Of a stretch of DNA of 64,000 nucleotides, positions 29,604 through 56,600 are shown piece by piece. The position numbers and the translations under genes are program-made. Every line of letters begins with the position of its first letter. Positions within the stretch are counted from its first letter, which is position 1. The notes under the pieces are model-generated. The model searched no databases. It worked only from the letters and a program-made list of their open reading frames with translations, and was not told where the DNA came from. This DNA is from Eubacteriales bacterium. Lineage in GTDB: Bacteria > Bacillota > Clostridia > Acetivibrionales > JANLFN01. The DNA is taken from NCBI GenBank assembly GCA_024655885.1, contig JANLFN010000001.1, positions 124,001 to 188,000 on the forward strand, written 5' to 3'.

Positions 29604-29770
29604 CGGATGAATGTTATGGAAGAGTTACCTTAAAGGTACACCGAAGGAGTTATACTCTCAGGTCAAATGACTATAACAGGACGCACCTCTGGAGAGACCG
29701 TCAAGGCGCCGAAGGGGCAAGTTCCGAAGGATCGGAATAATCTCTCAGGCAAAAGGACAGAGATGGGTTA
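29604..29770 (+). ncRNA. Tandem glycine riboswitch
   Basis: Two consecutive glycine aptamers. The first carries CACCGAAGGAGT and ACTCTCAGGTCAAATGAC with AACAGGACG. The second carries GGAGAGACC, GCGCCGAAGGGGCAAG and TCTCTCAGGCAAAAGGACAG, the hallmark gcvT-type core. A terminator follows at 29795. The next gene is glyA, so glycine is expected to set serine/glycine interconversion. Confidence 0.95.
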
Positions 29771-48847: not shown

Positions 48848-48926
48848 AGAGGTTATTCCTGGAATGCTCCCGTTTTACCCGGGTTTATCCGTGCTTACCT
48901 AAAATGTGAAAGAGAGGAAAATCGAT

Positions 48927-49862
48927 ATGATCTATGTGGATGCCCATTGCGATACACTGACTAAAATCATGGAGCTTAATACAAATCTTTATGAAAATAA
49001 TTGCCATGTAGATTTAAAAAGACTTAAAAAATACGGAAGCCATGTACAATTTTTTGCCGCATTTATTGAGCCGGTATACTGCCACGCATACGCAATGAAG
49101 CGGGCCATACAAATCATAGACAGGCTTTACGAGGAAATAAAAGCATACGGTGAGGACATTTCACTGTGCACAAGCTATGAGGAAATTGTTTCCACCGCCT
49201 CAAGCCACAAGGTTGCCGCTCTCCTCAGCATCGAAGGAGGGGAAGCACTCCAGGGCGATTTGTCCGCGCTGAGAATGTTTTACAAGCTCGGCGTCCGGAG
49301 TATTTGCCTTACATGGAACCACAGGAATGAAATCGCCGACGGCGTATCCGATTCGGAGTCGGGAGGAGGGCTTACTCCTTTTGGAAGGGAAGTGGTGAAA
49401 AATATGAATTCCCTTGGCATGCTGGTAGATGTTTCCCATATCTCGGAGAGAGGCTTCTGGGATGTCCTGGACATATCCAGAGCACCCGTAATTGCTTCCC
49501 ATTCAAATGCAAGGAAGCTCTGCAGCCATAAAAGAAACCTTACGGACGAGCAAATACTGGCTCTGAGCAAAAACAGGGGAGTCATGGGCATCAACCTCTA
49601 TCCCTTTTTTTTGAACGATAGGGGAGCCGCCTCTATCTCAGAGATCATAGACCACATTGAGCATATAGTCGGACTGGCTGGAATTGACTGCATCGGCATA
49701 GGAGCAGACTTTGACGGGGTTGAATGCACTCCTGAGGGAATCGGCGGCGTTCAGGACATGGAGAAGGTTTTTAATGAGCTTTTGAAACGGAACTATTCTG
49801 AAGATTGGATTGAAAAAATTGCAGGCGGCAATTTTTTGAGAGTGATCAAAGAGGTTTTTTAA
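48927..49862 (+). CDS. Membrane dipeptidase family (M19) peptidase
   Basis: 311 aa zinc dipeptidase of the renal dipeptidase family. Seen: the N-terminal metal motif VDAHCDTLTKI, a SIEGGEAL block with the bridging Glu, LTWNHRNEIADGV, VDVSHISERGFWDV and SHSNARKLCSHKRNL with metal His residues, and GIGADFDGVE. The ATG at 48927 has GAGAGGAAAA upstream; a GTG at 48906 is less likely. No signal peptide, so cytoplasmic despite the family name. Last gene before the non-coding island. Confidence 0.93.
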   Translation: MIYVDAHCDTLTKIMELNTNLYENNCHVDLKRLKKYGSHVQFFAAFIEPVYCHAYAMKRAIQIIDRLYEEIKAYGEDISLCTSYEEIVSTASSHKVAALLSIEGGEALQGDLSALRMFYKLGVRSICLTWNHRNEIADGVSDSESGGGLTPFGREVVKNMNSLGMLVDVSHISERGFWDVLDISRAPVIASHSNARKLCSHKRNLTDEQILALSKNRGVMGINLYPFFLNDRGAASISEIIDHIEHIVGLAGIDCIGIGADFDGVECTPEGIGGVQDMEKVFNELLKRNYSEDWIEKIAGGNFLRVIKEVF

Positions 49863-49865
49863 ACA

Positions 49866-50412
49866 AAAGAGCCCGTGATGATCTACGCTACAGCTGATAT
49901 AGATCCCTGCATACCTATAGACAATCTTTCGACTGCCCACAAGCATTACAGAACCCATACCAACCTTTGCTCGACTATCAAGAGTACCTTAGAAACCTGC
50001 TGCAATCGTTAGACTGCAACAGACCTCCAGTAGGTCAGCCAATCCGTACAGGGACATCTGCCAGTCGGGCAGAAGGCTATATGCAGATTCGGCGTCGTAC
50101 CTGCGGAACCCTTGATAATCTTAGCTCGAACCTTACACATCCCTTTCGACCGCACTGCAATAATTTGGTTACTGCAGTACAGCCTTACAGGACATAAATA
50201 CCGTAAACCCGCTAAAACCGAAACGAAGCTACCGAAACGATATTAACTTAAAACAGTATCCAATCGCCATCATCGGTAATTGTAAGGTTCTGCTCGCCGA
50301 CTAATATCAAACCTTATCGCCAGGCGTAGGCGAGATCTGATATTAATCTTTGACCGAATATTGCAAAGCCCTGCAAGGACCCTGCAATACTCTTGGCTCG
50401 ACCATCACGAAC
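49866..50412. ncRNA. Candidate large structured RNA or structured non-coding island
   Basis: No protein-like frame on either strand. Seen: the decamer CTTNGCTCGA three times in one orientation (49964, 50119, 50391); CTTTCGACYGC twice (49925, 50141); 7-bp ends CGTGATG (49873) and CATCACG (50402) that could close the element. Local inverted repeats include GATCTA 49879/49899, ATCTGC 50056 with GCAGAT, ACTGCA/TGCAGT about 50154-50177, TAAGGTT 50282/50309, CTCGCC 50292 with GGCGAG 50328, TAATATCA 50301 with TGATATTA 50337 (crossing the previous helix), and TATTGCA 50358/50382. The minus strand is G/T-rich and ends in CTCTTTTGTTT, slightly favouring minus-strand transcription. No match to RNase P, tmRNA or SRP RNA motifs. 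The remaining 50413-50664 is AT-rich and holds the next promoter. Confidence 0.45.
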
Positions 50413-50559
50413 CCTTGTGTTAATATTGTGTCCCCGTCCGTTCAATATATTCAATGAAGATTCTTCCATCTTTTCATGCATTATGTTCCAATAAAACTTG
50501 CATTTTTGAGTTTTGACAAAATGTTTTTTTTAAATATATGCATTATTATTTGCTGCAAC

Positions 50560-50664: not shown

Positions 50665-51954
50665 ATGAGTGATTTAAGGTCTATGAAACCAGAGGATTTA
50701 CAGAGCTATGTTGAGGTGCTGCAGAAAAAGTATGAGGATTTTAAAGCGCAAAAGCTCAATTACGACATGTCCAGGGGAAAACCGTGCTCAGCCCAACTGG
50801 AGCTGTCTGCGGGAATCCTTGATGCGCTTAAAAGCGACAGCAGCTTCAAAACGGCAGATGGGGCCGACAGCCGCAATTATGGAGGAATCGACGGTATTCC
50901 CGAGGCAAAGGAACTCTTCTCAAAAATGATTGACGTGGATGCAAAGGAAATTATTATCGGGGGGAATTCCAGCCTCAGTATGATGTACGACACGGTCTCA
51001 AGGGCTATGACCCACGGTGTGCTGGGAAGTAAAGTCCCTTGGGGAAAGCTTCCTGTGGTAAAGTTTATCTGTCCAAGTCCGGGATACGACAGGCATTTTT
51101 CGATATGTGAGTTTTTCAATATTGAAATGATCCCTGTTGAAATGAGAGCGGACGGTCCCGACATGGATGCTGTTGAGAAACTTGTAAGCAGTGACGAATC
51201 CATCAAAGGAATATGGTGCGTTCCCAAATACAGCAATCCGGATGGAATTACCTATTCGGATGAAGTTGTTGACAGGTTTGCCCGTTTAAGACCAAAAGCC
51301 AAAGATTTCCGCATATTCTGGGATAATGCCTACGCTGTCCATCATTTAACCGATCAACCGGACCGTCTAAAGAATATATTGAGTGCTTGTAAAGAAGCTG
51401 GCAATCCCGATATGGTCTACATTTTCGGTTCAACTTCGAAAATAAGCTTTGCGGGCGGGGGCATTGCAATGATGGGGGCCAGTGAAGCCAATATCGGTTT
51501 TATTAAAAAACAGCTTGCCATACAGACCATAGGTCCCGATAAGCTCAACCAGCTCCGCCATGTCAGGTATTTTCAACGCTTTGAAAACATAGAAGAACAT
51601 ATGAAGAAGCATGCGGCCATATTAAAGCCCAAGTTTGATGCTGTCCTTGAAATCCTTGAGGCTGAGCTGGGAGACAAAAACATAGCCTGGTGGAGCAAGC
51701 CCAACGGCGGCTATTTTATCAGTTTCAACACCCTGGACGGCTGTGCAAAAGACGTTGTGGCCATGGCCGCAGAAGCAGGGGTTATTTTTACGAAAGCGGG
51801 AGCCACCTTCCCTTACGGAAAAGACCCCCACGACCGTAATATCCGTATTGCTCCTACCTTTCCGCCCCTGGAGGAGTTAAGAAAGGCTATTGAACTGCTG
51901 TGCATCTGTGTTCAGCTGGTCAGTGCAAAAAAAATTCTGTCCTCAATAAGCTGA
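50665..51954 (+). CDS. Class I aminotransferase (aspartate aminotransferase-like, type Ic)
   Basis: 429 aa PLP enzyme. Seen: MSRGKPCSAQLELS, RNYGGIDGIPEAKELF, a CPSPGYDRHFSICEFF block, CVPKYSNPDG, FWDNAYAVHHL and the PLP Lys in GSTSKISFAGGG. The pattern fits the less common aspartate aminotransferase-like family (Asp_aminotransf) rather than AspC type Ia/Ib. AGGAGG precedes the ATG. Stands alone, so its pathway is not fixed by context; aspartate and purine synthesis (purB next) would be compatible. Confidence 0.85.
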   Translation: MSDLRSMKPEDLQSYVEVLQKKYEDFKAQKLNYDMSRGKPCSAQLELSAGILDALKSDSSFKTADGADSRNYGGIDGIPEAKELFSKMIDVDAKEIIIGGNSSLSMMYDTVSRAMTHGVLGSKVPWGKLPVVKFICPSPGYDRHFSICEFFNIEMIPVEMRADGPDMDAVEKLVSSDESIKGIWCVPKYSNPDGITYSDEVVDRFARLRPKAKDFRIFWDNAYAVHHLTDQPDRLKNILSACKEAGNPDMVYIFGSTSKISFAGGGIAMMGASEANIGFIKKQLAIQTIGPDKLNQLRHVRYFQRFENIEEHMKKHAAILKPKFDAVLEILEAELGDKNIAWWSKPNGGYFISFNTLDGCAKDVVAMAAEAGVIFTKAGATFPYGKDPHDRNIRIAPTFPPLEELRKAIELLCICVQLVSAKKILSSIS

Positions 51955-56460: not shown

Positions 56461-56600
56461 TCAATCACCTTCTCTTTCAACGCTTACGAGATTAGCTGAC
56501 GGATTCGGGTCGAAAGCTAACCCTACCCGGCAACAGCCAGGACTCACCCCGTGTATTGGTTCTCCCGCTCCACCTTGGGATTCAGCGAATATTCAATTTT
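56461..56600 (-). ncRNA. Cyclic di-AMP riboswitch (ydaO-yuaA type)
   Basis: Read on the minus strand it contains the class hallmarks in order: CGCTGAATC, GGAGCGGGAGAACCA, GGGGTGAGTCC, GGGTAGGG, CGACCCGAATCCGTCAGCTA and CTCGTAAGCG, with the CGCT and AGCG ends pairing. A terminator follows, so binding of c-di-AMP should switch dapB off. The stretch upstream (56640-56958) is AT-rich and holds only promoter-like sequence for both directions. Confidence 0.9.

Follow-up and report, generated by a model that had tools for sequence, protein, structure and literature searches.

What occupies the stretch between positions 49863 and 50664 of the window (the whole piece of DNA that was analysed, 64,000 nucleotides long), where the first-pass annotation could recognise no plausible gene? 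The gap is indeed bounded by the only good genes on its flanks, those for an M19 dipeptidase and an aspartate aminotransferase, and within it the annotation had seen a large and structured RNA, non-coding, outside any known class and possibly closed from end to end, which is also what emerges here from a strand-specific fold, from covariation found in the structure only and from a search of Rfam that gave no match. The best reading that we can offer, and one that we hold to be probable, is that of a gene in its own right, whose product is a large non-coding RNA that belongs to no class in Rfam and presumably acts in trans; this RNA is modular and star-shaped, would be made in the forespore by way of sigma-F and would serve as a multivalent scaffold. 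As far as sequence comparison can take the matter, the strand, ends, promoter motif and structure of this RNA gene all appear firm, and the RNA has the look neither of a mobile or phage-borne element nor of a coding or cis-regulatory one.

Some of the marks by which the element was noticed need amending. The contrast in base composition with AT-rich flanks exists on the aminotransferase side, where G+C is 0.28-0.29 against 0.41-0.50 in the element, but the dipeptidase side is not AT-rich. The decamer CTTNGCTCGA does occur exactly three times in the 64 kb, always inside the element (0.38 copies are expected by chance, and three were reached in 1 of 100 shuffles), but its copies start at 49965, 50120 and 50392, each one base away from the position first given; CTTTCGACYGC was located twice as annotated, at 49926 and 50143. 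The minus strand of 49863-50440 folds with -257.7 kcal/mol, 12.8 SD below dinucleotide shuffles, against -131.9 kcal/mol and 1.3 SD for the plus strand, and the RNA is therefore placed on the minus strand, on which the decamer reads TCGAGCNAAG; an RNA of the plus strand is rejected on its folding z of -1.3. The features of the locus are as follows, with R1 being a covariance model of P6 alone and R2 a model of the P2-P3 (5') domain.

48906-49862, plus strand: gene for an M19 dipeptidase (PF01244), convergent neighbour of the RNA, adjoining it in 9 loci.
50665-51954, plus strand: gene for an aspartate aminotransferase (PF12897), divergent neighbour of the RNA, adjoining it in 9 loci.
50446-50452, minus strand: -35 element, GAATATA (logo of 61 loci G 67, A 62, A 70, T 84, A 64, T 64 and A 54%, offset -22 to -16).
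50422-50433, minus strand: -10 element, GGACACAATATT, GGnnAnAnT, of the forespore sigma-F type (GG 91% and 85%, A 100%, T 100%, A 99% in 68 loci).
49868-50415, minus strand: the large RNA, a six-armed star, its first base the A of AGGGTTC at 50415 and its last paired base 49868, followed by TTTT.
50400-50415, minus strand: 5' strand of P1, the closing arm of 16 bp (99.8% of cells paired and 7 double-change pairs in P1).
50392-50401, minus strand: linker J1/2, decamer copy TCGAGCCAAG.
50356-50392, minus strand: arm P2, a hairpin of 15 bp (double changes in 12 of 15 pairs; R2 match of 92.6 bits).
50300-50348, minus strand: arm P3, a hairpin of 16 bp with a variable loop (double changes in 12 of 16 pairs; R2 match).
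50128-50290, minus strand: arm P4, base helix 50128-50137 with 50281-50290 (match to the P6 model of 32 bits, E 4.7e-7).
50120-50129, minus strand: linker J4/5, decamer copy TCGAGCTAAG.
49973-50120, minus strand: arm P5, branched, with hairpin P5b (consensus helices 8-10).
49965-49974, minus strand: linker J5/6, decamer copy TCGAGCAAAG.
49884-49968, minus strand: arm P6, 16 bp, a 4x4 internal loop, 13-15 bp and a GAAA-type loop (R1 102.5 bits).
49868-49883, minus strand: 3' strand of P1, leading into a T run that is a possible terminator and is present in most copies.

The fold thus listed has six arms, P1 to P6, leaving one junction, most of them with a base helix of 15-16 bp. The pairing of the two extremes that had been proposed is present and longer than was claimed, being the 16-bp helix of P1, which carries compensatory changes in relatives. 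A scan for a simple terminator found none; in some relatives, for example L187, separate terminator-like hairpins follow the RNA. The annotation had also pointed to crossing inverted repeats as pseudoknot geometry; this sequence does contain the hexamers, yet the pseudoknot is unsupported because the complement of the J3/4 hexamer is found in the P3 region of only 1 of 105 relatives.

Full-length relatives were recovered at well over 100 loci, and it is the comparison of these that carries the structure. In a first, structure-blind MAFFT alignment of 29 copies with 144 consensus pairs, double compensatory changes fall in 89 of the 144, against 40.6 +- 3.6 in shuffles, and 98.6% of 4166 cells are paired, a share that drops to 36-43% once partners are displaced by 1-3 columns. 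Covariation was then judged in the manner of R-scape, with APC-corrected G statistics compared with those of alignments simulated along the tree that had been inferred, the null being GTR+G in an implementation of our own, distinct from R-scape, and the structure being taken from the same alignments. With 29 sequences, where this null has little power, 3 pairs are significant and all lie in the structure; with 56 sequences there are 9 at E<=0.05, again all in the structure, and with 118 sequences from the order and the phylum there are 31, with 31 inside the structure and 0 outside, where no column pair reaches even E 1. When the test on the 118 sequences is limited to structure pairs (a two-set test) 85 of 139 are significant, and in their structure-blind alignment 97.8% of 16,262 cells pair. 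Homologues in Clostridia with compensatory changes, which had been named as the check on the claim, do therefore exist, and their covariation beats the phylogenetic null only inside the structure.

The arms of this RNA resemble one another. P4, P5 and P6 share a layout in which a base helix of 13-16 bp leads through an internal loop to a second helix, often capped by a GAAA-type tip, and P6, with 15 double-change pairs in its two long helices among 29 relatives, served as the model R1. All 41 matches of R1 in 61 kb lie inside the RNAs, and within the same RNAs it also matches P4 (E down to 6e-15), P5 and, weakly, P3, so the RNA is seen to be built from repeated arm modules. The linkers are alike as well, as seen in GGUCGAGCCAAG, GGUCGGCCAAAG, GGUCGAGCUAAG, GGUCGAGCAAAG and two looser ones, with a consensus of GUCGAGCNAAGR and a mean identity of 0.67 against 0.46 +- 0.06 for random sets (p 0.0035); the repeated decamer is three of these junction linkers. 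P4 contains an insert of ~80 nt (50200-50280) that is absent from most relatives and holds the repeat ACCGAAACGA twice. A short variant, seemingly without P4 and P5, lies at L179:2831-3109 in genome G111, in which spoIVA was not found and spoIIR is present.

When is such an RNA made? Its start lies 7-10 nt downstream of a conserved GnATA-N14-GGnnAnAnTA. In a logo for which the sites were anchored on the -10 element alone, GAATATA ends 15 nt before CAnAATAAT in the upstream regions of 61 loci, and 68 further copies across the phylum carry GnATA ... GGnnAnAnTA, a motif that resembles the sigma-F consensus of B. subtilis. A sigma-A promoter pattern was sought upstream of the RNA and was absent. 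In C. difficile the promoters of sigma-F and sigma-G are alike, and a G upstream of the -10 element is conserved in those of sigma-F (PMC3789822). A sigma-F-like test pattern, G[ACT][AT]T[AG]-N14-16-GGnnAnAnT, which was framed after the logo had been seen, occurs exactly in 34% of 70 distant RNA upstreams (null 0) and with <=1 mismatch in 81% (null 5%), and was found in 63% of the order set against a null of 4%. Upstream of spoIIR, a sigma-F gene, the pattern is enriched (53% vs 19%), at SASP genes it is slightly so (24% vs 11%) and at spoIVA it is not (10% vs 18%), a sigma-E pattern being found there in 40% vs 9%. A weight matrix trained on the RNA promoters of the order initially argued against a spore promoter, as upstreams of spoIIR and spoIVA scored no better than chance and those of SASP genes slightly better (shares above the 95th percentile of the null of 0%, 3% and 21% respectively). 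This matrix is, however, dominated by order-specific bases, whereas the consensus test with 70 distant copies pointed to sigma-F, and it is from that looser consensus test, and not from the trained matrix, that the sigma-F link is drawn. Taken together the promoter motifs make control of the RNA by a sigma-F-type factor likely.

The spread of the RNA bears on the same point. Matches were found by blastn in 35 of 100 related genomes, several copies being present in some and a single copy in the genome of the window. A DNA pattern scan over named genomes gave Acetivibrio alkalicellulosi, A. straminisolvens and A. mesophilus, Carboxydocella thermautotrophica, Tepidanaerobacter, Thermosediminibacter and Candidatus Formimonas warabiya, as well as MAGs labelled Symbiobacterium and Thermaerobacter. 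R1 matches 36 of 391 genomes of the class and R2 147 of 398 genomes of the phylum (37%), and few structured bacterial RNAs match this combination of size and spread. When the lists of genomes with the RNA and with spoIVA were compared by eye, spoIVA was present in 144 of the 147 phylum genomes that have the RNA and in 192 of the 251 that do not (p 4e-10), and in the class in 35 of 36 and 246 of 355 respectively (p 1e-4), both p values overstating the association, as the genomes share ancestry. The genomes with the RNA and without spoIVA are G111, G504, G659 and G705; spoIIR is present in three of these, and the remaining one has a completeness of 61%. The RNA is missing from many spore-formers, 192 of 336 in the phylum sample.

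The alternative that survives best is that the RNA is real but is made in vegetative growth or stationary phase, where another alternative sigma factor would read it, the link to spores being one of ancestry only. It is favoured by the failure of the trained matrix to score the spoIIR and spoIVA promoters and by association statistics that ignore phylogeny. It has to contend with GnATA-N14-16-GGnnAnAnT, present at the stated frequency in distant copies and enriched at spoIIR and not at spoIVA, with the absence of sigma-A hexamers, and with the single, incomplete genome that has the RNA and lacks both of the spore markers tested, and we regard it as unlikely, if still the one serious competitor.

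Returning to the forespore reading, sigma-F, and possibly also sigma-G, would read the promoter, and synthesis of the RNA would then take place in the forespore, shortly after the sporulation septum has formed. There it may act as a rigid multivalent scaffold, whose equal arms, repeated internal loops and GNRA-type tips would bind several identical partners, either molecules of one protein or further copies of the RNA itself. This scaffold or homo-oligomer reading is suggested because the arms are of equal length and their internal loops and tips are repeated, and because there is precedent in the cages of GOLLD and ROOL and in the dimer of OLE (PMC12286853); among the possible functions a scaffold or cage is given rather less than an even chance, the remainder being spread over others without ranking. 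A wider proposal, to which we would give slightly less than an even chance, is that it is an ancient sigma-F forespore RNA of deep-branching Bacillota, with repeated arm modules, that forms a multivalent RNA or ribonucleoprotein particle new to spore biology. Were the promoter reading true, a large RNA would so far have been missed in spore development, which textbooks present as a cell fate driven by proteins.

Could it instead be a divergent member of a large RNA class that is already described, such as OLE, GOLLD or ROOL? Large ornate bacterial RNAs are a known kind, and the size and ornateness are comparable. To our knowledge, no RNA described so far has six similar arms that repeat a single module, and the star of repeated arms together with the link to spores is, as far as can be told, without parallel. 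OLE RNA, of about 600 nt, belongs to anaerobic and extremophilic Bacillota and is thus similar in size, in its chromosomal location and in its phylum, and raiA is represented in Rfam, yet the Rfam models of both are unmatched by the six-armed RNA. Rfam includes profiles of GOLLD and ROOL as well as OLE, the last of which binds the membrane protein OapA as a dimer; GOLLD and ROOL, which are likewise large, multi-arm non-coding RNAs with a conserved fold, assemble into homo-oligomeric cages and have their genes close to tRNAs in phages and prophages (PMC12286853). The six-armed RNA differs from these two in being chromosomal, with no occurrence among the phages, plasmids and viral contigs searched, in its forespore-type promoter and repeated arms, and in leaving their covariance models unmatched. 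The raiA motif or ModT RNA is likewise structured and widespread in Bacillota, Clostridia among them (PMC11706538). Nearer to its presumed expression are CsfG and Bvs196, forespore RNAs of Bacillus under sigma-F and sigma-G, of which Bvs196 has a conserved structure, measures 294 nt and has been reported from Bacillus genomes only (PMC9147052); a six-arm architecture is not reported for either. A search of Rfam 15 (cmscan, 4227 models) between the flanking genes, at gathering score and then at E<=5, gave no credible match, three entries at E 0.3-4.7 belonging to families of eukaryotes or viruses and falling well short of their gathering scores, and at the gathering threshold the RNA was unmatched in 16 loci of relatives. 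The annotation was thus right that the element matches no class, and membership of a known one, which the unconserved pseudoknot also fails to help, is highly improbable. A search of the open-access literature found no description of this RNA, and an earlier mention outside that scope is possible.

The first-pass annotation gave a decayed repeat as its main alternative, and several genomes with more than one copy of the RNA might suggest a mobile element, whether decayed or active, as might two near-identical, AT-rich copies in G428 (L170:2658-3390 and L171), one of which directly follows a gene that reads as a tyrosine recombinase. Decay is refuted by the covariation, and the element is single-copy here, with a conserved promoter and with measured helices that are indel-free in 96-100% of sequences. 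The dipeptidase-RNA-aminotransferase order is kept in several families of the order, and since the dipeptidase is common to nine loci and the aminotransferase to nine, the locus looks old and vertically inherited. The RNA was unmatched in 50,697 phage records, in 2.9 million viral contigs (exact pattern) and in plasmid records, and where a mobile repeat would show numerous nearly identical copies with defined ends and target sites, a single copy with syntenic flanks was found in this genome, so a mobile origin is extremely improbable.

Equally improbable is a cis-acting leader or 3' UTR of a neighbouring gene, which the 5 nt between the RNA 3' end and the dipeptidase stop codon might suggest, given that both neighbours here lie on the opposite strand, as do the downstream genes in 48 of 66 cases, that neighbour families vary by clade with no co-oriented gene found to be kept across clades, and that the RNA has its own promoter motif. 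No gene was found to accompany the RNA throughout, its neighbours forming clade-specific sets, and because they differ between clades no partner gene is tied to it.

A few further observations were made at these loci. L173:2847-3606 holds two copies of the RNA in tandem, head to tail, and a promoter-like sequence precedes either copy. Family f140 has three genomes in which spoIVA lies close to the RNA and converges on it (G472:C6:228419-230332, G720:C1:956695-958594 and G781:C27:50949-52872). Other structured RNAs were also seen, namely a purine riboswitch at L057:6155-6258 and, in the window itself, tandem glycine riboswitch aptamers at 29607-29770 on the plus strand and a c-di-AMP (ydaO) riboswitch at 56465-56597 on the minus strand.
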